Shown piece by piece: positions 2,630 through 20,067 of a stretch of 20,067 bases of DNA. Source of the stretch: a virus. Under the pieces are notes generated by a model. The model did no database searches. It was not told where the DNA came from and saw nothing but the letters and a program-made list of their open reading frames with translations. Both the position numbers and the translations under genes were made by a program. The DNA is taken from positions 1 through 20,067 of the IMG/VR virus record IMGVR_UViG_3300044971_004299. One strand, written 5' to 3'. The first letter of the stretch is position 1. Every line of letters begins with the position of its first letter.

Positions 2630-2938
2630 CTACCCATTTTTTTCCCACCCATGCTTGGCTAAACCTAAATCAAAAGCCAGTTTTGGATAATTGCCAATTC
2701 TTTGATGGCACGCCCTACACACAGCCATACAGTTTTCTTCGTCCAGAATGGAGCCACCTTGACTACGCCTAATGATTTCGTGAACATCACAAGATGCATT
2801 GCGGTTGTACGTCACTTTTTCATCGTGCTCAGCAAAAATCGGACAGGCCTCACACCATGGACGTTCCTGAAGCAAGCGTTCCACAAGGGGCCGCCGCAAC
2901 CTGTACTGGGCTTCTTTCTTAAGAGATCTTCGACGCAT
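2630..2938 (-). CDS. HNH endonuclease
   Basis: A 102-residue HNH nuclease. Two CxxC pairs (C29/C32 and C74/C77) make the structural zinc site. The beta-beta-alpha metal motif is seen as DVHEIIRRSQGG (H53), N69 in the middle, and H78 in CRACHQRI. The N-terminus is very basic (MRRRSLKK), fitting DNA binding. Stand-alone HNH proteins of this size near terminase genes often assist cos-type packaging, but they can also be homing enzymes; the tight coupling here (1-base TAATG overlap with the glycosyltransferase stop) argues for a native operon member rather than an inserted homing gene. Target unknown. Confidence 0.9.
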   Translation of the reverse strand: MRRRSLKKEAQYRLRRPLVERLLQERPWCEACPIFAEHDEKVTYNRNASCDVHEIIRRSQGGSILDEENCMAVCRACHQRIGNYPKLAFDLGLAKHGWEKNG

Positions 2939-4005
2939 TACAAAATAGAATCAAAAAAATCGGACATTTTTTTTACTCCGTGCCTAATGTCGTACTTGTC
3001 CACTTTTTCTCTATTTGTCTTTGCGGCCAAAAGTCTTTGTTCCGGGTCACGCAAAGAAGAAAGCAATGGCTTCCAGTGACGTCGCTTGCGAGCGACAAGA
3101 CCGATTCCGTCTTCCTTTAACTCCAAGTATGACGGCGTGGGAGAAGCAACAAATGGGATGCCCGCTGCGGCATACTCCAAACCCTTAATGTTGCTTTTTG
3201 CCATATTGAAAGGAACATCGCTCAGTGGCACGATTCCAATATCGAACTGAAAAAGTTCTGGATATTTGCTTGGTGACACAAGTGGCAAAGTCGTAACTAA
3301 TTTGGGGTGGACATCAATTTCTTCCGCAAAAGAAACGTGCTGTGACACATGCCCTGAATGATGCAACTTGATAAGACCCTCTTCAAACATTGGCCCCAAA
3401 ATGCCTTTAACCTCGTTCAGGTCGCCAGATCGGTGAGCAGTTGAGCCAACCCATCCAACAATTGGTGTTTCGGTTTTTTCAATAGGCCGCCCCTTGAACC
3501 GTCCCACATCAATGTAGTTCCCAATAAGTTCAATCGGGCATTTAACAAAAGACGCTAATCGTTCTCGCAAGTAAGGCGTTGAAGTCGTGACGTAATCAGA
3601 CTTAGCCAAAATAGTTTTGTAGTGAATGGTGTTTTCTTTTGGATTGGTTTTAGGATGAGAAGCCGCAAAGGCAGCGTTTTTCGGTGAGAGGCCAAAATAC
3701 CAATCATCAATATCGTTAACGATTATTTGACCATTTGCCTGAGCGAGAAGAATCTTTTCAGGAATGTCCTCAAACATGACGCGTTGCATGACGATCACGT
3801 CGCAGTCGAAATGGTATGCACCACCCCAATCCCTGACACCAAAAATTCCGTCTTTATGGGCAAGGATTCCGATTGCCGCAACATTCTCCAATGATCCAAA
3901 ATACTGCCCCAAACGAGCCCACCCGGCTCCCCCCATTACCGGGTGACCTCGTTTGTCAGTTATTGATCTTGACCAATCACTTGAGGCGAATCCAATTTTT
4001 GGCAT
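2938..4005 (-). CDS. GT-B fold glycosyltransferase (group 1/GT4-like)
   Basis: A 355-residue glycosyltransferase. The C-terminal Rossmann half shows the nucleotide-sugar site of GT4-like enzymes: IGIVPLSDVPFN, then NIKGLEYAAAGIPFVAS at 272-288 with E277, and a downstream E295 in PSYLELKEDG. The N-terminal half has GGAGWARLGQYF near the start and a VNDIDDWYFGL segment typical of phage and exopolysaccharide GT-B proteins, then IVGWVGSTAHRSGDL at the inter-domain hinge. The length is normal for a single-chain GT-B enzyme. Acceptor unknown: modified phage DNA, a virion protein or host cell-wall glycan are all possible. Its place among DNA-handling genes slightly favours nucleic acid. It starts in a TGATG overlap with the upstream stop. 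Confidence 0.9.
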   Translation of the reverse strand: MPKIGFASSDWSRSITDKRGHPVMGGAGWARLGQYFGSLENVAAIGILAHKDGIFGVRDWGGAYHFDCDVIVMQRVMFEDIPEKILLAQANGQIIVNDIDDWYFGLSPKNAAFAASHPKTNPKENTIHYKTILAKSDYVTTSTPYLRERLASFVKCPIELIGNYIDVGRFKGRPIEKTETPIVGWVGSTAHRSGDLNEVKGILGPMFEEGLIKLHHSGHVSQHVSFAEEIDVHPKLVTTLPLVSPSKYPELFQFDIGIVPLSDVPFNMAKSNIKGLEYAAAGIPFVASPTPSYLELKEDGIGLVARKRRHWKPLLSSLRDPEQRLLAAKTNREKVDKYDIRHGVKKMSDFFDSIL

Positions 4006-4542: not shown

Positions 4543-4629
4543 TGGTGCCCGAGATGGGATTTGAACCCATAAGGTGTTGCCACCCGGGGGGTTTAAGCCC
4601 CCTGCGTTTGCCGGTTTCGCCACTCGGGC
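4543..4629 (-). tRNA. tRNA-Leu(UAA), CCA encoded
   Basis: Reading the reverse strand gives a complete class II tRNA. The acceptor stem GCCCGAG (4623-4629) pairs with CTCGGGC (4547-4553), followed by discriminator A and an encoded CCA. The anticodon stem is GGGGG/CCCCC around the loop CTTAAAC, so the anticodon is UAA (4593-4595). A long variable arm (GGGTGGCAACACC region) and a TTCAAAT T-loop complete it. The identity is Leu, reading UUA and, by wobble, UUG. It sits inside the minus-strand operon between the exonuclease gene and the 167-residue gene. Phage tRNAs usually supplement codons rarer in the host than in the phage. Confidence 0.95.
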
Positions 4630-6655: not shown

Positions 6656-7960
6656 TCAAACGATGATAGACGCAGTTTTCCTTTGGGGCAACCCCAACCC
6701 AGTGAGAATCGTGAAAGCGCCTACTGTCGCATCAACCTGATCGTCGTGATCGCCCGCTTCAGGAAAAGACGAAAACTCGTCCAAGTAATCGCTTAGCCAT
6801 GCCGAACGCATCAGTCGAACATTGCCGTTTGCCACAGCGGCAGCAAAAGGCCTTGCACGTGTAACTTTGTCACCAGTTGAGCGCAGACCCATAAAGTCAT
6901 ACCCGGAAAGAACATATCTTGCGTACTGGTCAAGTAGGGCTTTTCCGGAAGACCCCGGCTCCTGCTCCATGCGGATCGGAACATTCTTTCCGTCTTCGGC
7001 AGCAGTTTGGGCAATTAGCGCTTCCACCTTCTCTCCCTTCACTCGCGCTTTTTTAACGTCAAGCACATAGGCAATGCCTTGATCGAGCAGCATTAAAACG
7101 CCAACCGTCCAGTCGGGGTTCGGATTTGAGTGCGACGGCTCGGTAGCCGCAAGATCCCAAAAGCGTACAACTCGAGCCATCGAACTAATCTGCGGAACTT
7201 CGTGGGCGTCAATAATCCCAAACGATTCACGCGAAAAAAGAGTTCCTAGAGTGGTCGCCCACCAGTCACCGGACTCCAATCGACGTCTTTCAATGGGATC
7301 AAGTGTTTGGAGCGCCTGCCTGTACGACTCTGCGTCGATTCCGGGGTTGTCGGTCAGCCGGGAGGGAACAAAAATACGGTTCTGCTCCTGACCCTCCACG
7401 ATGAATCGTTGACGAACCCAGTTGGGTGCAGGGTTGGAAGCAGACCTCATTCTCAAGGGCACCTGAGACAGTGGTCCGCTCGATGGACGCCGCAAACGAG
7501 AGAACAAATAGCGGTAGTCCTGTTCTCTAATTTCCGTAACCTCGTCCATTCCAATGAATTGGAACTCCGCACCCTTGTAACGCAAGTAATCATTCACGTT
7601 GTTCAAGTAGCCAAAAGAAATGCGTGCCCCTGACGGAAAAGTGAATACATAGGAGTTTGCGTTCCAGTGAACGTCGTCTTGGGGGGCGAGCCAGTCTCTT
7701 GCCCTGTCCATGAGTGCACCCGGAAGCGACAAGTCGGCAAACGTCTTACGAAACAAAATGGCCGAGTAGTTCGGAACATCTACGTATTGAAGCGCAGACA
7801 TTAAAATGGCAGAACTTTTTCCGCCGCCAGCCGCTCCGCCGAATAGCGCCTCCAGTGCATACGTGCGCAAAAAAACACGTTGAGTGAGGGAGGGCTCTTC
7901 TGGGCAATAAAGCGGCTCTTTTGGTTTTAGCCAGTCAAGAACCTTGTTCCAGTCGGTCAT
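6656..7960 (-). CDS. terL: terminase large subunit
   Basis: A 434-residue packaging motor. The ATPase domain has Walker A GGAAGGGKS (41-49), an LFRKTFADL segment (69-77), Walker B FQFIGMDE (133-140) and the coupling motif SASNP (173-177). The nuclease domain starts with D269 in RFWDLAATEP and ends with DHDDQVDA (404-411), supplying the RNase H-like metal-binding acids. The length is usual for a compact TerL. It drives genome translocation into the prohead and makes the packaging cuts. An AGGTG ribosome site precedes the ATG. It is unusual in being on the strand opposite to the portal, as first gene of the recombination operon; no small terminase subunit is recognisable next to it. Confidence 0.97.
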   Translation of the reverse strand: MTDWNKVLDWLKPKEPLYCPEEPSLTQRVFLRTYALEALFGGAAGGGKSSAILMSALQYVDVPNYSAILFRKTFADLSLPGALMDRARDWLAPQDDVHWNANSYVFTFPSGARISFGYLNNVNDYLRYKGAEFQFIGMDEVTEIREQDYRYLFSRLRRPSSGPLSQVPLRMRSASNPAPNWVRQRFIVEGQEQNRIFVPSRLTDNPGIDAESYRQALQTLDPIERRRLESGDWWATTLGTLFSRESFGIIDAHEVPQISSMARVVRFWDLAATEPSHSNPNPDWTVGVLMLLDQGIAYVLDVKKARVKGEKVEALIAQTAAEDGKNVPIRMEQEPGSSGKALLDQYARYVLSGYDFMGLRSTGDKVTRARPFAAAVANGNVRLMRSAWLSDYLDEFSSFPEAGDHDDQVDATVGAFTILTGLGLPQRKTASIIV

Positions 7961-8034: not shown

Positions 8035-8244
8035 GTGAAAAAAGAAAACAACTTGGATTTTGCGGGAGTAACAAGATTGTCAAAAATCATCGGTTTTCTC
8101 ACTCGCGAAAATATTGCACACATGCTTATGGTTGCTTTTGTCATTTTTACTTGCATTGGAGCGGCTCTAATTTATCTTCCCGCTGGTTTTATTACATTGG
8201 GAGTTACAGCCGGACTTTATGCCTACCTTCTTGGATCTGAATAA
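8035..8244 (+). CDS. small two-helix membrane protein
   Basis: A 69-residue protein from a GTG start with AAGGTG five bases upstream. Residues 27-48 and 50-67 are strongly hydrophobic and probably form two membrane helices joined by a tight Pro-Ala-Gly turn; the N-terminus (MKKENN...) is basic and likely cytoplasmic. Its TAA overlaps the portal ATG by one base. Small membrane proteins just before the portal are seen in many actinophages, without known function. It is too short and lacks features to call a holin with any confidence. Confidence 0.75.
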   Translation: MKKENNLDFAGVTRLSKIIGFLTRENIAHMLMVAFVIFTCIGAALIYLPAGFITLGVTAGLYAYLLGSE

Positions 8245-10430
8245 TGGCTTGGAATAAAACAGAGAATAAGCAACTTGGCGTCGATCAGGAGGTGAAGTCC
8301 TCTTTAGGTTTGGGGGCGCCAATTTCCTTGAATCCATCGATGGTGGGACGAGGGTACCGAGACGGGTGGGACATTGAACGGGCCTACCGGGAAGGTGTAC
8401 AGCGAGTAACTTGGGTTTTTCGCTGTATTGACGCCATTGCTGGAAATCAAGCCCGACTCCCCGTAGTCCTGAGAAAAGACAATTCACCACAGGGCGAGAT
8501 ATTAAGTAAATCTAATGAAGTTTTAGATCTACTTAACACTAAGTCCAACGAGGGGGAGAACTCCTTTATTTTCCGCTTCCGACTGTCAAGTCAATTGCTG
8601 ATGAGCACTCGCGGCGTGTTCATTGAAAAGGTGCGCGGTCGGGGGGGCAAACTCATTGCCCTGCATTTGCTGCCCCCCCAGCACACATCCCCAATTCCAG
8701 ATCCACGGAAATTTGTTTCCGGATTTGAAGTTTTACTTCCCGGCGGCGGGAAGAAAATTATTAGACCAGAAGATGTTGTTTGGATTCGACGCCCACATCC
8801 GATTGATCCTTATCTTTCTTTGACGCCAATGGAGACTGCTGGCGTGGCAATTGAAATTGAAAATCTTGCAAAGATTTACAACAGGAACTTTCTTTACAAC
8901 GACGGACGTCCGGGTGGGCTCTTGGTTGTGCGTGGAGAAATGGATGAAGACGACAAGGAAGAACTTCGTAGTCGTTTCCGTGGGAACCTGAATAGAGCGG
9001 GCCAGACCTCCGTTATCGCTTCAGACGATGGAGTCGACTTCGTTGACACCTCATCGAACCCTCGCGATGCCGCTTACATCCAAATGCGTCAAATTACAAA
9101 AGAAGAGATTCTGGCCGCTTTCGGTGTACCTGAGAGCGTTATTGGCAATGCCGCCGGTCGAACATTTTCAAACGCTGCAGAAGAGGGTCGTGTTTTTTGG
9201 ATGGAGACCATGCAGCCCCATTTGGAAGTTATCGCTCGGGCTTTAGACGAACTTCACGACCAGTACTACATTGATTTCGATACTTCCAGTGTTCCAATTC
9301 TTATTGTTGCCAAGCAGGAGCGGCAACGGTATTTGATGGATGAATTTGGAAATGGCTTAATTACGGGCAATGAGTACCGTGAAGGAACGGGTCGAAGCAA
9401 GATCGAGTCCGAACTTATGGACTCAATGCTTGCCAATCCGAACTTGACGCCAATTGGAAATACCGAAAAGCCTTTTAATGCCGCAGCCCCTCAAACTCCC
9501 GTAGACATGGTTCCAACAGGGGAAGCCGCAGCCCCCGAAGTTCAGGCCGAAGCCCCAGAAACGGCAGTACCGGAGCAGACGGAAATTCCCGCAGAACCCG
9601 CCCCTGAGGAAGAAGCGACGTTGACGGCTCCGATCCTTTTTAAGGATTTGCTCAACAAGGACCAGCCGGACGAGTGGGAAATCAAGTCAAGTCAATCAGT
9701 TGACAGGTGGACGGAAATTTTTGATCGCTCCTTGGAGCGCCTTTTTGAACGTCAGCAAAGAGTTGTGCTGGAGAAAGCAATGGGAGCAAAGGCCCGACGA
9801 GCCATTGCGGCTGGGGAGTTGCCGGTAGATGCAATTTTCGATAAAACCGTATGGAATAAGCAACTCGATGAAGACCTTCGCCCTGTGATTACGGCGATTG
9901 TGCGAGATGCTGCTGACATGGGGACGAGCCTGTCAAGCAAAGTTGATAAAACGGATTTTGTTTTTGATGACGAGGCCCTAAAGCAGTATGTGGATGCCCA
10001 GATTTACAGAATCCAAAAAGCCAACGAAACGACAAAAGAAGAAATTGCTTCAGCGATTTTAGTTGTACTTCTGCTCGGCAGCGACGAAGACAAGATGGGT
10101 ATTCTCCGCACCGCTCTTGGAGCAATTTTTGCCAACTTAATTGGCGCTCGCGGACGCCGCATTGCAGAAAATGAAACGCAAACTGCTTTTAACGCTGGAA
10201 CTTATTTTGCTGCTGGCGCTGCGGCAAAAAATAGCGCGACTGGAGTTAAAAAAACTTGGCTAAGTCGACGTGATGGAAAAGTTCGAAGTGCTCATGCGGC
10301 GCTACATGGGAAAAAAGTTGCTTTTTCAGAAGGTTTCAAGACCGATGGATCGCTTTTGCGATTCCCCGGAGACCCCCTTGCTCCACCCCATTTGACGATT
10401 AATTGTCGTTGCAGGCTTCGATTCGATTGA
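8244..10430 (+). CDS. portal protein fused to MuF-like head morphogenesis domain
   Basis: A 728-residue fusion. Residues about 30-410 match the HK97-type portal: an RVTWVFRCIDAIAGNQARLP opening, the LHLLPPQ and PEDVVWIRRP strands, a PMETAGVAIEIENLAKIYN stem helix and ILAAFGVPESVIGNAAGRTF. Residues about 415-475 are a Pro/Ala/Glu-rich linker. The C-terminal part (about 480-728) is a MuF/SPP1 gp7-like minor head domain, with ETQTAFNAGTYFAAGA and the diagnostic end: SRRDGKVRSAH (674-684), FPGDPLAPPHLTINCRCRL near the C-terminus. The portal forms the dodecameric DNA entry ring; MuF-like proteins ride with it and can carry effector domains or enter the host. Separate genes are the norm, so the fusion fixes one MuF copy per portal subunit. 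No extra toxin or enzyme domain is visible after the MuF motif. Confidence 0.93.
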   Translation: MAWNKTENKQLGVDQEVKSSLGLGAPISLNPSMVGRGYRDGWDIERAYREGVQRVTWVFRCIDAIAGNQARLPVVLRKDNSPQGEILSKSNEVLDLLNTKSNEGENSFIFRFRLSSQLLMSTRGVFIEKVRGRGGKLIALHLLPPQHTSPIPDPRKFVSGFEVLLPGGGKKIIRPEDVVWIRRPHPIDPYLSLTPMETAGVAIEIENLAKIYNRNFLYNDGRPGGLLVVRGEMDEDDKEELRSRFRGNLNRAGQTSVIASDDGVDFVDTSSNPRDAAYIQMRQITKEEILAAFGVPESVIGNAAGRTFSNAAEEGRVFWMETMQPHLEVIARALDELHDQYYIDFDTSSVPILIVAKQERQRYLMDEFGNGLITGNEYREGTGRSKIESELMDSMLANPNLTPIGNTEKPFNAAAPQTPVDMVPTGEAAAPEVQAEAPETAVPEQTEIPAEPAPEEEATLTAPILFKDLLNKDQPDEWEIKSSQSVDRWTEIFDRSLERLFERQQRVVLEKAMGAKARRAIAAGELPVDAIFDKTVWNKQLDEDLRPVITAIVRDAADMGTSLSSKVDKTDFVFDDEALKQYVDAQIYRIQKANETTKEEIASAILVVLLLGSDEDKMGILRTALGAIFANLIGARGRRIAENETQTAFNAGTYFAAGAAAKNSATGVKKTWLSRRDGKVRSAHAALHGKKVAFSEGFKTDGSLLRFPGDPLAPPHLTINCRCRLRFD

Positions 10431-10540: not shown

Positions 10541-13500
10541 ATGTCAACCGATTTTCAAACAAAGTCTATTCCCGGTCAGTTAAACGTTGATCAGGCAGAG
10601 GGAATTGTTGAATGCTTCGTTGCGGGCATTGGCAATAAAGACTCAGTAGGAGACATTGTTCTTCCCGGCGCATTCGAGGGAAGCCTAAAGCGCAGGAAGC
10701 CACGCGTCGTTTGGGGGCACGACTGGAACCATCCGATTGGCCGAGTTCTGGAAATTTACGAGGTTGGACCCAATGACCGCCGCCTACCGGAAAAAATGCG
10801 CGCTGCTCGAATCGGGGGGCTGTTTGCAAAAGTCCAGTTCAACCTTAAAAGCGAAAGAGGTCGAGAAGCCTTTGCAAATATTTCATTTTTTGGGGCTGAA
10901 CAAGAATGGTCAATTGGCTACAAAACTATTCAAGCCGTTTACGACAACACCCGACAGGCCAACCTTCTAAAAGAAGTTGAACTCTACGAAGTCTCCCCCG
11001 TCCTCCATGGGGCCAATCAACTGACTGGAACTATTTCGATCAAGTCCGACGACGCTAAAGACCGTGTCACTTCTTTTAAGAAGTCCAAGTGGCCGATGTT
11101 CGACCGAGCCTATGCGGAACGAATTAAAACTGAACACCCAAACATCTGGGACAAGGGTGGCAACATTAAGGGTGATGACCAGTACACAATTCTCACACGT
11201 ATTGCTGAACAGGGCGGCACAGCCAAAACCGAAGATCAGATTCAGGCATTGGAACTTCGCGAAGCGTGGATCGCTCGTCATCTAAAGGATTTTCAACTTC
11301 CGGGCGTAGTTGCCCAAATGAAGTGGCTTGCGATTGGTTCCCGTGGCGAAGGACACATGAAGGACGTTGTCCGGGAAGCAATCAGCAAGTCTTCGGATGG
11401 GAAGGCTGAAGCAGCATGCCCAATCGCAACTAGGGACGTTGCGGTGAATCTGGAAAACCGTCAAAAGGCTATTGAGTCTGCTGGCTATGGGCCGTTAAAC
11501 CCTGAAGAGCCAAACCTAGATTTTTGGGCCGGAAAGGCTCGTCGCTGGGACGTTTCAACTGAGGATGCCCAAAAGCAAAAGTGTGGTAATTGTGCCGCTT
11601 TCGTGAAGACCGAGCGAATGATGGACTGCATTAAACAAGGTCTCGCAAACGAATCTGGAAATGAAGCCGAAGGCGTAATTGAAGCAGGTGACCTCGGCTA
11701 CTGCGAAGCGTTTGATTTCAAGTGTGCTGCTGCCCGTACTTGTGATGCTTGGATCGGTGGTGGACCTGTTACTAGCGAAAGCGAAGAGCAGGAAAAGGGC
11801 TATGGCTATGGCAAGCCACATAGCGGCGAAAATCGTGAAGAATTGTTAGAAATGTGGCGACGTCTTTCCGGTTACGCCGCCGACCGCGAAGGTTCGTCCG
11901 ATGACGACCCTCGCGAAGAATTAGATGAGATTGCTGAATCCGCAGGCATGTCGAATCCCGCAATGGGCAGGCAGGCTGTGCTGGCCCGCTCACTTGCCAA
12001 TGAGTTGCGAAGCCCTGTAAGAATTCGCACCATGACATCGAATACTGTTGTTTTCGATGTCATGGATCCGTCCGATCCAGATGACGTGACCACTATGAGG
12101 TCTTCTTGGCACGCCGAAGAGGGGCGTGTAATGATCGGCAAGCCAGAACGCGTAAGAGTCGAAACCGTTTACGTTCCAATGGAGGGCGGCGGTGGACAAG
12201 CGTATTCCGGCGATGCGGAAAAAGGCCTTGGTGCAACTATCGGCGGTGGACGCTCGCGTGAAGGACAAAGCGAAATTGACCGTGACGGCGACGGGGTTAT
12301 TTTTGATGGCACCCCCGACGAAAGACCCGCCCCTAAAAAGCGCCCCCAGCAAGAGTCTCGCCCTGCAGCAAACCGGGCCACCTCAAACTCCAAGGCTAGT
12401 TATCACCGGGCCAGATGGAAGAATGGTGAAAAAAGTTTTTTCCATGAAGATGGCAGCGGCATCATTCAAGATTCTAACGGCAAGGAGTATTCAGTCGGCA
12501 ACTGGGAAGAAGCGCCAAGCAAGGTGTATTCCAACGTCCCAAAAAATCTACGCTCCAAGGCAAAGCAGGCCCGTGAAGCGGCCCTCAGGAAGGCTCATAC
12601 TGAGCGGTGGAATCGCGAACTTGGTGGTGCGGGATACGAAGATATTCTGGCTCGGGCGCAGAAAAAAGCCTCACTTGGTCGGGACGCAAATCTTCCCAGA
12701 TCATGGAAATTTAACGACAGCGACGGGCACACCACGACAGTTGAGGAGGACGGATCAGGCGTTGTCCGTCATCGTGATGGTGGTGTCGTGTTTTCCTACG
12801 GCGGGTTTGATGATCCCGAAGCCCTTGCCGAGACGCCTGCCGAGATGCGTAAAAGATTGCAGAAAATGCGGGCATATCAGTGGGCAAGCAATCAGGTAGC
12901 AAGAGCCTCTTTGGAAAAGAGTGCGGATAGCGACATGGACGTAAAGGCTGACCCTCGGGCCGGAATTCCCCAAGAGGCCATTACGGGCGACATTCTGCGA
13001 GGCTACGGTCCACGACGCGGCAACCTCGAACGACTACTTCGGTACTGGCGACCAATTATGAAAAAGCCCGGCGGGTTCCGTCGCTGCCTTGTCATTCTCG
13101 CCGACCACCCCGAGTTGTACCCGTTGCAGAACATCTGCGCGTGGCTTCACCACGAGACCACCGGCTTGTGGCCGAACGAGGGCTGCCACCACCCGGGTAT
13201 GAAGAACTGTCGTCGCAAGTTGCGTGGGGTGCGGAATGGGTCGCTGTGGAGCGATCGGGAGTTTAGTGCTCGCCTGCGCCGCATGGGCGACGACAAGAAG
13301 GGCATGGACTGGCAGGAATCTGACGACGGCTACGGGGACGTGACCGATGACGATGTCAAGTATGCCAATCGCGTTCTTAATGAGTTTCTAATGGAGGAAA
13401 AAGAGTTTGCCTCCTATCTTTCGGAGGAGAAGAACTGGATGCACGTCGGCGACGATCAAAACGAGATGGAGATTGAGCACGATTGGGTGAAGCCGGATGG

Positions 13501-14767
13501 CTATGCCGACAAGCCCGGCGGCTGCGGTTGCGGGTGTTCCGGCAAAGATTCGTCCTCACCGTACAAGTCTGCGGATGGCGGTGTTGACGGGCTGGGGGAA
13601 AAGGTTGGTCGAGCGTTGAATGTCCGTAATGCTGAGCGGATTGCCGAAGCGGTGCGGCTGCTCACTCAGGTTCTCGGCAACCAAGCCCCCACGATGCAAA
13701 GCAAGGGTGCCGCAGTAATCGTGTCGGCACCTACCGAGTCGTTGTTTGACTTGCGGGAAACCCTTGACCCCGTTATTGACTACTACGGCTTGGACGCCGT
13801 GGTCGCCGAGGATGGGGTGCACATCAATGGGGTTGAGTCGGAGGCTGCTGCGAAAGCATTGGACAGGGCCATTGATTCGTTTGTGGATATTCAAATTAAG
13901 GAAATGTTCGACGCTGTAGAAACCAAAGGTATAGGTCGAGGCTTGCGTCGCCTGCTTCCCGGCGCTGGCGGAGGCCGAGGCGGGCGAGGTGGCCGAAGGG
14001 GTCGCGGGGGACGAGGCGAACGTTTTGATCCCAACGCCTACGACGGCAATAGTGATGGGATGGTGCAGGACAACACACCTTTCGAGCGTCCTGCGACTCC
14101 TCGTGCTGGCCGTGCTGCTGGGGCTGTAGACGGTGGCGGAAAAAACAAGCCAGACAACAAGTGGCTAGAAACGCAAAAAGCGTTAAGGTCTCTTGGTTTG
14201 TCCGACCAAATGGTCCTTGGGCGTGCCACCGAGACCGACGTAGATACCATTGGGTTCGCGGTTCGGGAAATTCAGGCAAGCATGTCTGATGATTCGGGAA
14301 GTGGCCGTCGCGTAGAGGTTACAGACGGGCAAGTGGCCGACCAGTTACTTGATGACCTTCAGGCCGCCGGTGCCAAGTTCGACGACGAGCAACTGAAAAA
14401 GATTAGAAGTGCGATCGAAGATGTTGCTTCAAGGTCGACAAGAGGTAAGCCTCTGTCGCAACAGGAAATGAAGGAACAGAGGAAACAAACTGCTCGGCGG
14501 GTTGCATTTAGAGAACTTGGCCTTGACGGAACTGTTTTGAGCGACAAAGGACCGTCGGAAAAAGAGTGGGACGCGCTTGAACGTCTTGTGGAAGAGATTG
14601 AGGCAGACGGACCGGCTAACCCCGATGGCAGCCGACGCGAACTTGAAGCCTACGACATTTATGACTCAATTTACGATCAAATTGGTCGTGAAAACATGAC
14701 CGATAAGGAAATGGCCAATTTGCAGAAAATTGCCGACGCGATTATTCGGGATCGTGAAATGGATTAA
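10541..14767 (+). CDS. HK97-type prohead protease-led giant multidomain head protein
   Basis: 1408 residues from the ATG at 10541; a TTG at 10508 is in frame, but AAGGTAGGG favours the ATG. Residues 1-165 are an HK97/S78-family prohead protease: GDIVLPGAF, catalytic H60 in WGHDW, S124 in EWSIGY, and ELYEVSP (147-153). Then come a helical region (about 175-300), a six-cysteine domain (C348, C351, C363, C388, C395, C401) reminiscent of HiPIP-like phage domains, a calcium-loop-like motif (D580-D589) ending TPDERPA, two ~100-residue repeats (EDGSG at 636 and 736), a W/R-rich domain starting GYGPRRGNLERLLRYW (821), a CGCGC cluster (995-999), an RGG-rich stretch (about 1134-1160), a second calcium-loop-like motif (1168-1177) ending TPFERPA, and a charged helical tail. 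Usual proteases are about 200-300 residues. The extra parts may be scaffold or be released by self-cleavage. The protease call is firm; the rest is unknown. Confidence 0.9.
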   Translation: MSTDFQTKSIPGQLNVDQAEGIVECFVAGIGNKDSVGDIVLPGAFEGSLKRRKPRVVWGHDWNHPIGRVLEIYEVGPNDRRLPEKMRAARIGGLFAKVQFNLKSERGREAFANISFFGAEQEWSIGYKTIQAVYDNTRQANLLKEVELYEVSPVLHGANQLTGTISIKSDDAKDRVTSFKKSKWPMFDRAYAERIKTEHPNIWDKGGNIKGDDQYTILTRIAEQGGTAKTEDQIQALELREAWIARHLKDFQLPGVVAQMKWLAIGSRGEGHMKDVVREAISKSSDGKAEAACPIATRDVAVNLENRQKAIESAGYGPLNPEEPNLDFWAGKARRWDVSTEDAQKQKCGNCAAFVKTERMMDCIKQGLANESGNEAEGVIEAGDLGYCEAFDFKCAAARTCDAWIGGGPVTSESEEQEKGYGYGKPHSGENREELLEMWRRLSGYAADREGSSDDDPREELDEIAESAGMSNPAMGRQAVLARSLANELRSPVRIRTMTSNTVVFDVMDPSDPDDVTTMRSSWHAEEGRVMIGKPERVRVETVYVPMEGGGGQAYSGDAEKGLGATIGGGRSREGQSEIDRDGDGVIFDGTPDERPAPKKRPQQESRPAANRATSNSKASYHRARWKNGEKSFFHEDGSGIIQDSNGKEYSVGNWEEAPSKVYSNVPKNLRSKAKQAREAALRKAHTERWNRELGGAGYEDILARAQKKASLGRDANLPRSWKFNDSDGHTTTVEEDGSGVVRHRDGGVVFSYGGFDDPEALAETPAEMRKRLQKMRAYQWASNQVARASLEKSADSDMDVKADPRAGIPQEAITGDILRGYGPRRGNLERLLRYWRPIMKKPGGFRRCLVILADHPELYPLQNICAWLHHETTGLWPNEGCHHPGMKNCRRKLRGVRNGSLWSDREFSARLRRMGDDKKGMDWQESDDGYGDVTDDDVKYANRVLNEFLMEEKEFASYLSEEKNWMHVGDDQNEMEIEHDWVKPDGYADKPGGCGCGCSGKDSSSPYKSADGGVDGLGEKVGRALNVRNAERIAEAVRLLTQVLGNQAPTMQSKGAAVIVSAPTESLFDLRETLDPVIDYYGLDAVVAEDGVHINGVESEAAAKALDRAIDSFVDIQIKEMFDAVETKGIGRGLRRLLPGAGGGRGGRGGRRGRGGRGERFDPNAYDGNSDGMVQDNTPFERPATPRAGRAAGAVDGGGKNKPDNKWLETQKALRSLGLSDQMVLGRATETDVDTIGFAVREIQASMSDDSGSGRRVEVTDGQVADQLLDDLQAAGAKFDDEQLKKIRSAIEDVASRSTRGKPLSQQEMKEQRKQTARRVAFRELGLDGTVLSDKGPSEKEWDALERLVEEIEADGPANPDGSRRELEAYDIYDSIYDQIGRENMTDKEMANLQKIADAIIRDREMD
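12393..12900 (+). repeat. tandem ~100-residue repeat coded within the protease gene
   Basis: Two consecutive segments of the encoded protein share the pattern Trp-(Lys)-...-EDGSG-[IV]-[IV]-...-G-...-S-x-G-...-P-...-R-rich helix-...-W. The EDGSG anchors fall at residues 636-640 and 736-740 of the 1408-residue protein, an offset of exactly 100. The copies have diverged strongly at the DNA level, so the duplication is old. Each unit looks like a small beta module followed by a basic helix. Confidence 0.6.
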
Positions 14768-14802: not shown

Positions 14803-14889
14803 TAGCAAGTAAAGTAGGAAAACAGCACGTCCACATGGCGTGCGTCAACAGAAAGCAAGACAAACGCCATGCAGGATCAGGAGACTCCA

Positions 14890-16197
14890 ATGGACGATAT
14901 GGACGAGAAGGCGGTCGTTCGGATTGACGCCGAAGGCGCTGTAGTGAAGTGCGCTAAGGGCGTCACCGATGGTTGCGGTTACAAGGCCGGTGCCAAGGTG
15001 TGCGGCAAGTGTGGCGCCATGGCGGTGCAGGTTAAGGGCGATGACGTTGACATGACCGAGGATTACGAGGGCATGGGCGACGAGATGCCCAAGAAGCAGA
15101 AGCCCAAGCGAGGCAGGTCAATGGGCAATCCCCAAGAACTGGACGGGTATGACGAGGAAGACCCCTCCGCCGAAGCAATGGATGAGTCCGATGAGGTCCC
15201 CGATGAGTCAAACGGCGAAATGGGCGAAACCCTTGTTGAGGCCATGAGCGAACCTGACGTTCGCCGCCGCATGGCTGCCCGCAAGCGACGCATGGCTTCG
15301 ATGAATGTGAAGAGTGCCGAGTGGGGCGACGACGCTTATCTTTGCGGCTTGCAGATGAAAATGCTGTCCGGCGATTCGCAACCCTGTGCCGCCTGCCCGG
15401 GCGGATGCGCCCCAGAAAGCGATCTTCCCACCCTTTTGGAAGTGCAGGGACTCGCCGAGCAGATCAGCGGAGGGAAGGTGCTTTCGTCTGGTTACTCGGA
15501 TGCCGTCGATTTGTACATTGTGGATGTTGAGCAGAAGGACGGACGTCTTAGCGAAATGTACTTTGATGGCGCTACCGCCGAGTGCATTCGGTGGGAAAAA
15601 CTTGATGAAGCGCTGATTGGCGAAAAGTCCGCACAGTTGCCAATGGCCATTGTGTCCATCGATGAAGCGGCCCAAATTGCCACAAAGTCCCTCCCCGGGG
15701 AGGTGGTCGCCGTTGACGCCGACGTCTTTGAGGGATACGACGTTTATGCCGTTGAGATTGAAGGCGCCGACGGCAAGTCCTACGACGGCTTCGTCTCCCT
15801 TAACGGCGAACTTCTTGGTTACGACGAATACGATCCGACGGAAGCCGCAGACATTGATGCCGAAACTTCCGAGTACGCCTTGAAGGCCGCCTATTCCACC
15901 GTTCAGCGTGAACGCATGGCCGAGACCGGCGAAGCGATGGAAGACGGCTCCTACCCCATCAAAAACATGGAGGACCTTAAGAACGCCATTCAGGCTTACG
16001 GTCGGGCAAAGAACAAGCCGGCCGCTCGCATCCACATTATGCGGCGCGCCGAAGATCTCGATGCCATTGACATGATCCCCGAGAACTGGCTGTCGGGCAA
16101 AGAAGCCGATGCCGAGGAAAAGGCGGAGTTCGACCCCAAGTTTTTGGCCTCGCTTATGGAGTTTGAGTTGCTGGCCACCGAGGAAGATCGCGACTGA
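14890..16197 (+). CDS. scaffold-position protein with zinc-ribbon-like, CxxCPGGC and PepSY-like domains
   Basis: 435 residues from the ATG at 14890, chosen for AGGAG six bases upstream; an earlier ATG at 14869 lacks a good site. The protein is very acidic. Modules in order: a zinc-ribbon-like motif (C21, C29, C38, C41; ending VCGKCGAMAV), an acidic low-complexity stretch (about 50-115), a basic MAARKRR patch, a cysteine segment (C152, then C166, C169, C173 in CAACPGGC) leading into an alpha/beta domain (about 178-245), a PepSY-like domain (about 252-315: SIDEAAQIATKSLPGEVV, then YAVEIEGADGK) and a C-terminal domain (about 352-402: DGSYPIKNMEDLKNAIQAYG then RAKNK) that I recall from the ends of phage scaffold/prohead proteins (I believe DUF6582). 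Its place after the protease, acidity and tail suggest a scaffold. PepSY domains are known as M4 protease inhibitors, so it may restrain proteolysis; that is inference. Confidence 0.75.
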   Translation: MDDMDEKAVVRIDAEGAVVKCAKGVTDGCGYKAGAKVCGKCGAMAVQVKGDDVDMTEDYEGMGDEMPKKQKPKRGRSMGNPQELDGYDEEDPSAEAMDESDEVPDESNGEMGETLVEAMSEPDVRRRMAARKRRMASMNVKSAEWGDDAYLCGLQMKMLSGDSQPCAACPGGCAPESDLPTLLEVQGLAEQISGGKVLSSGYSDAVDLYIVDVEQKDGRLSEMYFDGATAECIRWEKLDEALIGEKSAQLPMAIVSIDEAAQIATKSLPGEVVAVDADVFEGYDVYAVEIEGADGKSYDGFVSLNGELLGYDEYDPTEAADIDAETSEYALKAAYSTVQRERMAETGEAMEDGSYPIKNMEDLKNAIQAYGRAKNKPAARIHIMRRAEDLDAIDMIPENWLSGKEADAEEKAEFDPKFLASLMEFELLATEEDRD

Positions 16198-16224: not shown

Positions 16225-18309
16225 GTGTGGACAGGCAGCGAACCTGCAGAGGCGGCTTCCGTAACTGTAAATGCGAAGATGCTTAATGGCGGCTCTTACA
16301 CGTTAACGCCAGCCATTTCAGATGACGCTCCAGCAGTGATCCGTCAACCGTTAAACGGTGATCGCAACCTTGTGAATTTCAAGGCTCTCATGCTTTGGAA
16401 CTATTTGGAGCAGGCGCCGTTTGACGCAAAAGTTGGCCTCATCACAAGTCGGTCCGGTGCCGGCAGAGTTGTTCAGTCCATTGGGTCGGTAGCGATACCC
16501 GGCGACATGAGCGATATCCGTTCGCCGGTACGGTCTACCGTCTATGAGGTCCTCACCCCCGGAGGTGGAGGAGGACGAAACCGCCGAAATCTGTTGGGTG
16601 CTGCCATTGGAGGTGAACGGGGGGCGGTGCGCTGCCCCGCGGGTTATGAGTTTGGTGGCCGTTTCGCTACCCGAGGATTTGGGAACTGCGGTCGACGATT
16701 GTTCGATGTCCTCGGGGGGCCTAATGTTTCTCCGGGCCGCCGGTTGGGCGGCAATATGGTGGGACTATTGCGAGCGGAGCGCAACAGAGTGGGGGCTGGG
16801 GGGTACGGCAACCGAACAGTGCAGATTCAGCGCAATGCCCAAATCCCAAGAGTGGCGGCTTCAAACGAGCAAAAGTTCAATGATGGTTTGGAGCAGGCTG
16901 TTGCCACGCTCGCCAATCCCGATATTGATGGGATGTTGTTGGTGCGTCGCGATGGGCAAATTCTGCGTTCTGCTGTAAGCGCCAATGTGCTGACGCGTGT
17001 GGCCGAAAACCCCGACATGAAAGACGGCGCCCTTGTCGCTTCTGTCGCCGACCCATCAGCGTTAGGCGACGAAGAGGTGCCTGCCATTTGGAAAAGTGGA
17101 GTTCGGTCGGTGGCGTTGGCGCTTCCCGGCGGAGGCTCCATTAGAGTTTCTCGGTCGCGCGATTTATCGGCAACCGATAAGCGGCGACTTGGTCGGGTGT
17201 GGGCTCAGGCAAACAACAGATCCGATGGCCGATACGACTACGGTCTTCGGCTGCGACGTGCTACGGAAAAGTCCAATGGGCTTCTTGTTTATGAAGAGAA
17301 GTTTCCGAACATCCAGAAGCCCAGTGAAACTGTCACCATTTCGGAAACGGCAAACGAAGAAAATCGCATTTCTGTGCAACGCTGGGTGCACGAAACTTAT
17401 CTTGCCGAAAAGGCCCCCGGGCGAGACGCCAAAGACAAAACGTGGAACGTTGTTGACGTTGCCGGTCAGGAAACGGCTATTAGCACGAACGAAATTGCCG
17501 ACGCCAAGGCGGCCGTCCAGCATTTAAAGAATGGCAAGCCCGTGAACGACGTGCCATCAGATTTGTTGGATAACGCCATTTCTCAATCAAAAGTATTTCA
17601 GTCTTCGCGAGTTCGGCCCGGCGTGACGCTTTTGGAGAGATCGAACGGTGAAAAATGGTGGCGAGTAAATTCGTCTGATGATTACATGCATCTCGCGGAA
17701 CGAATTTCTGCCGATGTAAACGGTGCACTCGGGCTGCGTACTTCAACGGTTAAGTTTATTGGCGCTGGTGCCCGTCGCGATGTGCTGGTATCCCATCCAG
17801 AAAGCGACGACCAAAGGATGCGTCGCTTAACTGTGAATGAAATGAACTCGCAGGATCTTTTGCGAACGGTAGTGAGCGACTGGTTGGTGGATCGACGCGA
17901 CCGCAATCCAGCGTCACTTGTTAGCGTTGGGCGTGACGATAATGGGCGTCTTGCCTCAACTACAAATGTTGACGCCGCTTTGGTTGGGCTGTCCACCGAA
18001 GAACTGAAGCGTCGCCGCCAACTGGTGTTGGGCGATTTTGCCGGACAGTCATTCAATGCGTTGGCTGCCGACCGATTCCGCTCGGGCAGCGTTTCGCAAA
18101 AAAAGGCTTTGCTGGAACTTTACGACGATTTGCTGAAACGCGCCGCCAACTTCAATTGGGATGACTACATCAGTCGGCTTGGGTTGGATGGTGGTTTGTC
18201 GCCCGGCGAACGAGCCCACGTTGAACTGGTCAAAGCGTTGTACGAGCGGCGGCTAAAGAATTTGCGTTCAAGCCGCAAACAATTTTTGTCAATTTTCGGA
18301 CTGTCGTAA
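16225..18309 (+). CDS. large virion-cluster protein with Cys module and degenerate kinase-like domain
   Basis: 694 residues from a GTG start with GGAG upstream. I do not recognise a named family overall. The N-terminus (1-110) is mixed alpha/beta, ending in DIRSPVRSTVYEVLTPGG. A Gly-rich linker leads to a cysteine module at 137-156: C137-P-x-G-x3-G-G...R...N-C155-G. After a Gly/Arg linker comes an alpha/beta region (about 215-300). The C-terminal third resembles the HipA/PI3-kinase-like fold: NGEKWWRVN (474-482), then a helix and LGLRTSTVKFIG, then WLVDRRDRNPASLV (553-566), in the place of the kinase DRxxxN loop, and NGRLASTTNVDAAL (573-586), in the place of the metal-binding Asp strand. The expected N-lobe Lys, catalytic-loop Asn and metal Asp look replaced, suggesting a pseudokinase. 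It overlaps the next ATG by one base (TAATG). Confidence 0.7.
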   Translation: MWTGSEPAEAASVTVNAKMLNGGSYTLTPAISDDAPAVIRQPLNGDRNLVNFKALMLWNYLEQAPFDAKVGLITSRSGAGRVVQSIGSVAIPGDMSDIRSPVRSTVYEVLTPGGGGGRNRRNLLGAAIGGERGAVRCPAGYEFGGRFATRGFGNCGRRLFDVLGGPNVSPGRRLGGNMVGLLRAERNRVGAGGYGNRTVQIQRNAQIPRVAASNEQKFNDGLEQAVATLANPDIDGMLLVRRDGQILRSAVSANVLTRVAENPDMKDGALVASVADPSALGDEEVPAIWKSGVRSVALALPGGGSIRVSRSRDLSATDKRRLGRVWAQANNRSDGRYDYGLRLRRATEKSNGLLVYEEKFPNIQKPSETVTISETANEENRISVQRWVHETYLAEKAPGRDAKDKTWNVVDVAGQETAISTNEIADAKAAVQHLKNGKPVNDVPSDLLDNAISQSKVFQSSRVRPGVTLLERSNGEKWWRVNSSDDYMHLAERISADVNGALGLRTSTVKFIGAGARRDVLVSHPESDDQRMRRLTVNEMNSQDLLRTVVSDWLVDRRDRNPASLVSVGRDDNGRLASTTNVDAALVGLSTEELKRRRQLVLGDFAGQSFNALAADRFRSGSVSQKKALLELYDDLLKRAANFNWDDYISRLGLDGGLSPGERAHVELVKALYERRLKNLRSSRKQFLSIFGLS

Positions 18310-20067
18310 TGGCACGCGTCCTCCTGTTGAACGATACGGCAACGAAGACTTTATTTGCTGTCGTTTCCGAGAATGACAATATGTTGCACTTCCACGGTGT
18401 GACTGAGGCCGGTAAAGAATGGGCTCGGTGGGTGGAGTCACAGAGCGAACCTGCGCGCGACTTGACCGAAGTGGCGAAAAGCGCAGATTATGGCCTCACT
18501 GCGGACGGGCCAAAAGTTTTAACAAAAACGCTTCGCATTGAGTTAAGCGATTATCTTCCTTTAGACGCTCCGTCGGCCAAAGCCCTTGGCGTGGAGTTGC
18601 GACAGAGAGAAATTGACTACAGGGCATTGGCTGCAGTCAGCGACCGCCGGCTCGCCGCTATGGCATATGCCGTGAAGCAACCCCGAGCGTTTTTTGATCC
18701 CGATTTGGGTCCTAGCGGCGGGTTTCGATGTCCTTTGGGAACCCCCAACGGCGGCCAGATCACTGATCGGTTTGGAAGGAACTGCGGTTTAGGCGTTGCC
18801 CGTCGGCTCGCCAATAGAATTGATGGCGGTAATGGCGGTCTGTCTCGGCAGGTGGGTTCGCGCAGGCAATCCCGTCCGGATAGTGTGAGCGAGCGGGTTG
18901 AGGACGCTAAGCCCACGTTGCGAAGCCGTCGCAGCGTATCGGGCGGGCGAATTAGTGGGGCTGGCGGCGCCAGCGGTTCAACAGTCGACTTGGCAGGAAG
19001 CGATCGTTCAGAGACGGTTTCTATTGAACAGTTGCGGGAAGAAAATTTTAAATTCTTTCAAGAGGTCGATCTCGCTTTCGAGGGGGCAAAGAACGATAAA
19101 AGTGTTGGCGAAAAGGAAATTGACGAAATCGTCAAGCAGCGAAAAAAGCAAATTCGCGAGGTGCGAGAACGGGCGGATGCCGAAAAAGATCGCAGGAATC
19201 GGGCGGAGTACGAAAAGCGCTACGATTACCTATTTAACGATGTGCAGCGTTGGACCCGTTTGCGGAAAGAGCGCGATGAAACCGGAAAGCGGGTTCAAGC
19301 GCAACTAAATCGAGAACGGCAGTTTTTGACGGCTATAGAAATGCAGAATGACGACTTAAGAGAACGGATTGAGCGGGGAAACATTTTTGATCTGGCGGAG
19401 GCCCAAAAGCGACGTGACGTCGCAAGGGGTTCGGCAGAAGATTTGCGTCTGGCACTGAGCGATGAAGCGCTTGACCCTGAAGTTGCCAATGTGCTTTGGA
19501 AGCAGATTGCGGCTTTTGAGGAAAGCGCCGACGTGTACCAAGAAATGGTTGACGTAGGGGAAAGGATGAGGGCAAACCCTGTGCCCGATCTTCCCGAAGG
19601 CGGGAAACGGCCTAAACCGGCTCGAGGTTTAGCGGTTTTGGCTAGCGACCCTGATGGCGCCCTGCTGGGGCGACGTGAGACAAAAAACGGTTACGCTTTG
19701 CCTGTCGTGGTGCCGGTTGGGCATAAAAACATCTATAGCGCTCGTGACGCTGTTCGTGCTTTACAAGAAGACAAAATTGATCTTGCAGACGTCCCTGACC
19801 AATTTCTTGCCGAGTCGATTGCGACGGCGAACAAACGTTTTGAGTTTTGGTTTGATGGAGACGGCGTCAATGGTCTCACCATGTACAAAGACAAGGTGAC
19901 GGGCAAGGGGGTTGGCATCAAGTTTTTGGGCGGCGAGGGTTACGGAGCCCAAGAGGACTTGAATGAACTTGTCGCCCATCATTTAGCCGAGCGGTTTGGT
20001 TTCCCAATGGGGTCTATTCGTGTGGGTGGAAAACCGGATCTTGCCGCTGGGGAAAAGGCGGCTGCCC
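18309..20067 (+). CDS. large virion-cluster protein with Cys module, coiled coil and kinase-like N-lobe, partial
   Basis: I translated 586 codons by hand from the ATG at 18309; the frame is open to the window end, so the C-terminus is missing. Residues 1-130 are an alpha/beta head unlike the previous protein. At 141-160 is the same cysteine module as in the previous gene (C141-P-L-G-x3-G-G...R...N-C159-G). A Gly/Ser/Arg-rich linker (about 170-235) is followed by a long charged coiled coil (about 240-455). From about 515 the sequence fits the N-lobe of a HipA/PI3-kinase-like fold: KRFEFWFDGDG, then KGVGIKFLGGEG with K538, a helix with E553 (NELVAHHLAERFGF) and GSIRVGG. Unlike the previous protein, the Lys and Glu are present, so this copy may be an active kinase; the catalytic loop lies beyond the window. 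Confidence 0.7.
   Translation, partial: MARVLLLNDTATKTLFAVVSENDNMLHFHGVTEAGKEWARWVESQSEPARDLTEVAKSADYGLTADGPKVLTKTLRIELSDYLPLDAPSAKALGVELRQREIDYRALAAVSDRRLAAMAYAVKQPRAFFDPDLGPSGGFRCPLGTPNGGQITDRFGRNCGLGVARRLANRIDGGNGGLSRQVGSRRQSRPDSVSERVEDAKPTLRSRRSVSGGRISGAGGASGSTVDLAGSDRSETVSIEQLREENFKFFQEVDLAFEGAKNDKSVGEKEIDEIVKQRKKQIREVRERADAEKDRRNRAEYEKRYDYLFNDVQRWTRLRKERDETGKRVQAQLNRERQFLTAIEMQNDDLRERIERGNIFDLAEAQKRRDVARGSAEDLRLALSDEALDPEVANVLWKQIAAFEESADVYQEMVDVGERMRANPVPDLPEGGKRPKPARGLAVLASDPDGALLGRRETKNGYALPVVVPVGHKNIYSARDAVRALQEDKIDLADVPDQFLAESIATANKRFEFWFDGDGVNGLTMYKDKVTGKGVGIKFLGGEGYGAQEDLNELVAHHLAERFGFPMGSIRVGGKPDLAAGEKAAA

Follow-up and report, generated by a model that had tools for sequence, protein, structure and literature searches.

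A modular HK97-type prohead protease protein of uncultured tailed phages as a probable carrier of accessory modules

Head proteases are usually viewed as small, dedicated enzymes. Why, then, does one of them open a frame of 1408 amino acids (aa), P0001, in a 20067-base viral contig (IMG/VR record IMGVR_UViG_3300044971_004299, the whole of which is called the window below)? A preliminary description, made from the letters of the window alone, had read P0001 as a head protease followed, without a break in the frame, by at least seven distinguishable segments. The frame itself held up, being open for all 1408 codons, with a ribosome-binding-like site (AAGGTAGG) directly 5' of its ATG and a length far above the longest frame found across 200 shuffles of the window (284 aa). 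The modular make-up held as well, borne out by matches to head protease families and by nine distinguishable segments that are backed by presence or absence among relatives. On balance, with confidence a little above even, we favor the reading that P0001 is an HK97-type prohead protease whose core became the carrier of accessory modules, probably cargo inside the head.

The protease assignment comes from residues 1-175 of P0001 (PROT). Residues 19-165 matched Peptidase_S78 (PF04586) at 44.7 bits, above the cutoff of 21, and P0001 matched phrog_80 (head maturation protease) with an E value of 4e-32. H60 and S124 (in WSIGYK), to which the catalytic His and Ser were assigned by motif, were identical in 12 of 12 aligned relatives. 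P0001 scored 53.4 bits against TIGR01543, an NCBIfam equivalog narrower than the family, and thus missed its cutoff of 59; by these scores it is filed as an S78 prohead protease and not as an HK97 equivalog.

A scan of viral contigs for relatives gave 57 loci (cited below by L numbers), and in most of them (some 30 related contigs) the protease protein measured 547-577 aa and consisted of PROT, M2, M4, and M8, which in P0001 occupy residues 1-175, 176-285, 440-555, and 1005-1119, respectively. P0001 is about 5 times the usual size of a head protease, but its own family is usually 547-577 aa long, so that it exceeds its relatives about 2.5-fold. Its additions are a cysteine-rich domain (residues 290-413), linker 1 plus the WK cassette (556-800), M7 (805-1000), and linker 2 plus CT (1120-1408). 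Most relatives end with M8, and M4 and M8 are, as judged from their conservation, the best candidates for a scaffold. M2 was also found in Salinibacter phages, within an 852-aa protein, and, together with DUF6321, in one separate 230-aa gene of L158; in the protease protein of L051 (L051:5709-6926), DUF6321 stands in place of M2.

Homologues with the same domain order, which had been named as a check on the preliminary description, were found, and the order of the modules was kept. L002 and L003, from two metagenomes, contain every part of P0001 except CT in a complete frame of 1139 aa. The cysteine-rich domain is precisely absent from L004 and L008 (the L004 protein has at least 1107 aa), WK is precisely absent from L009 and L073 (the latter complete at 909 aa), and L046 is without the cysteine-rich domain, M4, and WK. 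Complete fused frames among relatives thus measure 1139, 909, and, in L155, 2690 aa. The WK cassette was confined to the window and L002-L008.

M7 gives the clearest view of how an addition entered the frame. More than 15 relatives encode M7 separately, in a 203- to 262-aa gene that lies some 2 kb past the protease and is flanked by the P0002-type and P0003-type genes; the synteny of core-type relatives is terL/portal-MuF/protease/P0002/M7 gene/P0003. In the window and L002, the separate M7 gene is absent, P0002 adjoins P0003, and M7 lies inside the protease frame. All fused-M7 proteins fell into one clade of the protease-part tree with moderate support (81/70), members on truncated contigs not being scorable for the fusion, and wherever a member of the window's clade was long enough to tell, down to 66% protease identity, M7 was fused. 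Thus, the fusion is neither recent nor accidental, and one old move of M7 into the protease frame is the simplest reading of the tree. A recent accidental fusion, which the preliminary description would have seen in close relatives with a split frame, was ruled out by the fused M7 in all scorable members of the clade and by the complete fused frames elsewhere; M7 is separate in more distant relatives but fused in those members of the window's own clade that are long enough to show it. Elsewhere, M7 is fused to the P0003-type protein (L053, L156, and L157), and M7-like sequence occurs in several actinophage genes annotated as capsid maturation protease. The head operon of L053 (L053:13499-16102 and L053:16170-19352) encodes a polyA-polymerase-type nucleotidyltransferase with an exonuclease domain and, as its neighbor, a protein that joins M7 to a 2H phosphoesterase domain (2'-5' RNA ligase superfamily). 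Behind the P0003-type gene, some relatives encode giant proteins of 1969-2419 aa (L042:15844-21963, L018:16319-23578, and L156:13624-19533, the last continuous with the P0003-type protein) that show, close to the C terminus, a weak PI3/PI4-kinase-like match under the Pfam cutoff.

The cysteine-rich domain is likewise found apart from the protease: about 70 viral contigs, many of roughly 30-37 kb or less, carry it as a gene of its own (155-191 aa). Seven cysteines were invariant among 14 members. In Actinomycetia phage DSL-LC01, in which the gene lies two frames upstream of an 855-aa protease with an M7-like part, it is annotated as a high potential iron-sulfur protein (HIPIP, PF01355), an annotation not mentioned in the DSL-LC01 paper. 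The family shares with HIPIP a CxxC, further cysteines, and a GYC motif, and public records use the name; it differs in having 7 invariant cysteines instead of 4, and the window's own domain had no PF01355 match. Only 4 of the 14 members matched PF01355, weakly (best E = 0.0037), and the iron-sulfur name can therefore serve as a lead but not as a result. In L142-L145, the domain was joined to a head protease a second time, independently, and lies inside a 534- to 665-aa protein with an XkdF-type protease (PF14550; L142:3267-5264 and L145:3335-4939). Searches of solved structures with the full P0001, M7, and the cysteine-rich domain yielded nothing significant.

Two of the additions, WK and CT, are headed by a recurrent linker with the pattern K-G-[LI]-G, a Gly/Arg-rich run, and DxxxDGxVxxxTPxERPA, alternatively written as DxDxDGxVxxGTxxERPA, the DxDxDG part of which presumably resembles a calcium-binding loop. 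The linker was present in about 10 different proteins of related phages, including other virion-operon proteins, and was not found in the 547- to 577-aa core proteins; a search of the phage collection with the linker peptide gave nothing relevant. A profile trained only on non-protease proteins matched both linkers of P0001 (Table 1) as well as L155 and had 0 matches among 1336 reversed proteins. L155 (marine, on a contig filed as a Phycisphaerae metagenome-assembled genome) encodes a 2690-aa protein (L155:9989-18061) that opens with the same protease and extends through the linker, a weak ParB match, a KTSC match above the cutoff, and long charged stretches. In L158, a 778-aa protein directly before the capsid gene (L158:5633-7969) combines the linker with a zeta-toxin-like kinase (PF06414, E = 1.7e-10). 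The occurrence of the spacer before two add-ins and in other proteins suggests a shared way of attaching cargo. That it would be a shared cargo tag, by which modules attached to various virion-operon proteins are loaded into the prohead and released by the protease, we consider distinctly improbable; in its effect, such a system would resemble the targeting propeptides of T4 internal proteins, except that the linker sits inside fused proteins.

Around P0001, a portal-MuF gene directly upstream and a terminase gene nearby identify the window, by gene content, as the head-gene region of a tailed phage. That no major capsid protein is seen up to position 20067 had been thought to make the role of P0001 in head building puzzling. 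None is encoded by the three downstream open reading frames (P0002, P0003, and P0004 were ruled out as the missing protein, having no capsid match), but this is so only because the window ends too early. In L002, the closest relative, which is identical to the window across the first half of the protease gene, the capsid gene starts 7.58 kb past the protease stop, beyond the 5.3 kb that the window has there. The puzzle disappears, as the capsid gene is ordinary in relatives: each of the 7 long IMG/VR relatives that were tested has a PF05065 (HK97-fold) capsid gene (E values no higher than 1e-44), an operon-mate of the protease outside the window. PF05065 was not found in the P0001 frame, and relatives encode the capsid as a separate gene. 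In their capsid proteins, a conserved delta-like region at the N terminus is connected to the shell domain by a variable Ala-rich link, an architecture as expected of a putative substrate trimmed by such a protease. Farther upstream, the window contains a glycosyltransferase-like gene (phrog_7162; 2938-4005) with no counterpart in the compared relatives and, between minus-strand genes, a tRNA-Leu (TAA anticodon; 4543-4629, minus strand).

Table 1. Positions in the window of P0001, its segments, and neighboring features
Feature	Position	Strand	Basis or remark
Terminase large subunit	6656..7960	-	Pfam/phrog
Portal protein with C-terminal MuF domain	8244..10430	+	Pfam/phrog; directly upstream of P0001
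Whole frame P0001, modular head protease protein, 1408 aa	10541..14767	+	ATG to TAA open; open reading frame list
PROT, HK97-type prohead serine protease	10541..11065	+	Pfam, phrog, aligned relatives
M2, conserved 110-aa module, no assigned function	11066..11395	+	Relatives
Cysteine-rich domain, 7 invariant Cys	11408..11779	+	Stand-alone gene elsewhere; absent from L004/L008
M4, core module in nearly all relatives	11858..12205	+	Relatives
Linker 1, EKGLGATIGGG...DRDGDGVIFDGTPDERPAP	12155..12361	+	Profile from non-protease proteins only, E = 3e-4
0.87-kb stretch nearly identical in two phage types, mosaic junction	12159..13027	+	Flanks ~75% left, 66-80% right
WK cassette, 186 aa, duplicated	12377..12940	+	Two diverged copies of ~80 aa, pairwise E = 6e-5
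M7, phrog_6439-like, RRGNLERLLRYW...CAWLHHETTGLWPN	12953..13540	+	Gene of its own (203-262 aa) in most relatives
M8, C-terminal core module (GRxLNxRNAERIxEAVRLLTQVL onward)	13553..13897	+	Relatives
Linker 2, TKGIGRGL + Gly/Arg-rich run + FDPNAYDGNSDGMVQDNTPFERPATP	13889..14125	+	Profile without protease proteins, E = 9e-14
CT, C-terminal add-in, charged, no family match	14126..14764	+	Otherwise only L004, cut by contig end
P0002, 442 aa, conserved downstream gene	14869..16197	+	PepSY match weak, under cutoff; no capsid match
P0003, 694 aa, conserved downstream gene	16225..18309	+	Relatives' preceding separate M7 gene missing here

The exact length of P0001 has to be judged together with the make-up of the contig. 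The left side of the window was 99.8-100% identical to L002, L003, and L005-L007 (L002 and L003 up to 13027), and from about 12159 the window was nearly identical to L004 and L008 up to the ends of those contigs; identity to each parent type on its other side was about 66-80%. These identities mark the contig as a recombinant, natural or assembler-made, whose two arms belong to different phage types. Between the arms, positions 12159-13027 are near-identical in phages that differ at about one-quarter of their bases elsewhere, a trace of recent recombination and an assembly trap. The full 1408-aa module set occurs in this contig only, across the junction, and we give even chances to its being an assembly chimera, the real proteins being those of L002/L003 (1139 aa) and of L004 (1107 aa or more), which would be compatible with a protease core carrying accessory modules. 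The switch from near-identity with one type to near-identity with the other points that way, as does the ending of L005-L007 within the shared cassette, 2 of these ends adjoining positions that vary between contigs; GC content (guanine plus cytosine) is higher on the right (0.51-0.59, also given as 0.55-0.59) than on the left (about 0.45-0.52, also given as about 0.49), in keeping with the two parent types. The shared cassette itself, however, shows natural recombination at this place, so that a true recombinant is equally possible, and the module fusion is seen without this contig (L002, L003, L004, and L073). A peptide-pattern search with P0003 found no near relative, and the right arm past 14245 is thus without an independent contig. 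The fused architecture, as read from the relatives, stands without the window because different metagenome data sets yielded L002, L003, L004, L008, and L073; an assembly chimera would leave the fusion intact, as both parent types show it independently.

If the protease core carries cargo, the PROT-M2-M4-M8 core (~550 aa) would enter the prohead and trim the N-terminal delta-like region of the capsid protein. In the window's clade, the cysteine-rich domain, WK, M7, and CT would have been taken into the frame step by step; in the same chain as the protease, they would be packaged into the prohead in a fixed ratio, perhaps cut free at the linkers during maturation by the protease or a partner molecule, and, once released, may be injected with the DNA. 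We infer that the modules are packaged in the head, that they are cut at the linkers, and that they act once injected, and also that P0001 cleaves itself, the first three because of precedents: Microbacterium phages with a capsid maturation protease fused to other virion proteins (e.g., clusters EE, EG, and EL; PMC7302621), multidomain, head-packaged polyvalent proteins (PMC5512222), and the SPN3US prohead protease, which trims head proteins as well as a propeptide at its own C terminus (PMC10052503). Several points weigh against this account. The window's contig may be chimeric, few of the modules can be assigned a function or fold, and neither virion proteomics nor cleavage data were found for these uncultured phages. 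Since no linker flanks M7 or the cysteine-rich domain, it cannot account for all add-ins, and a by-eye comparison of the capsid N-arm (KSLGE...SxEFK) with the linkers (K[SGA][LI]G, ...ERPA) established no common cleavage motif.

Two other roles for the additions were weighed. We regard as unlikely the view of the preliminary description, by which P0001 in its entirety would be a polyprotein that forms an inner scaffold for building the prohead and is afterward cut into pieces by its own protease. M8 is a conserved C-terminal core module, a separate scaffold gene was not recognized, and protease-scaffold-capsid fusions exist in Microbacterium cluster EE (PMC7302621); yet the added modules vary among relatives of the same capsid type, unlike an essential scaffold, and the capsid protein has an N-terminal delta-like region of its own. 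By the patterns of presence and absence, the turnover of add-ins fits dispensable cargo better than an essential scaffold. In HK97, the delta region serves as the scaffold. Still rather doubtful, if a shade less so, is that the add-ins are parts for head assembly or stability (decoration, portal vertex, or DNA binding) that are kept in the particle and not injected. They adjoin head genes in many other phages, and the 7 invariant cysteines of the cysteine-rich domain could form a structural metal site, but in relatives the linker precedes domains of enzyme or nucleic-acid type (zeta-toxin-like kinase, ParB, and KTSC).

The kind of gene is known, from HK97-type proteases, fused head proteins, and polyvalent proteins; new, as far as the searched library and databases show, are this combination, the relocation of M7, and the recurrent linker. 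The protease gene appears here as a docking place for domains that come from other phages and from neighboring genes, and the same cysteine-rich domain was picked up by head proteases of different kinds. Orphan domains of many uncultured phages are thereby linked to head maturation, and the shared linker offers a concrete sequence for questions of cargo loading or cleavage.

Compared with the HK97-family prohead proteases, P0001 has a Pfam score above the cutoff, the invariant His and Ser, and a gene position behind the portal and upstream of the gene for a capsid protein with an N-terminal delta-like region; it differs in its 1408 aa with several extra modules and in scoring just under the NCBIfam equivalog cutoff. 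The phage collection held no record covering most of P0001. Also close in kind are the actinophage capsid maturation protease fusions, which join a head protease and virion proteins in one gene, several of them with M7-like sequence; however, their partners are MuF, scaffold, or capsid (PMC7302621), whereas those in P0001 are the cysteine-rich domain, WK, M7, and CT, and, unlike the Microbacterium EE type, the P0001 frame is without a capsid domain (PF05065). Effector or large-polyvalent-protein-associated Pfam domains were not found in P0001, the matches in L155 being a weak ParB and a clear KTSC. With the polyvalent proteins (PMC5512222), P0001 shares a large multidomain build, a virion gene context, and many swappable domains, and, where some of those proteins carry a peptidase thought to process them, the peptidase in P0001 is the prohead protease.

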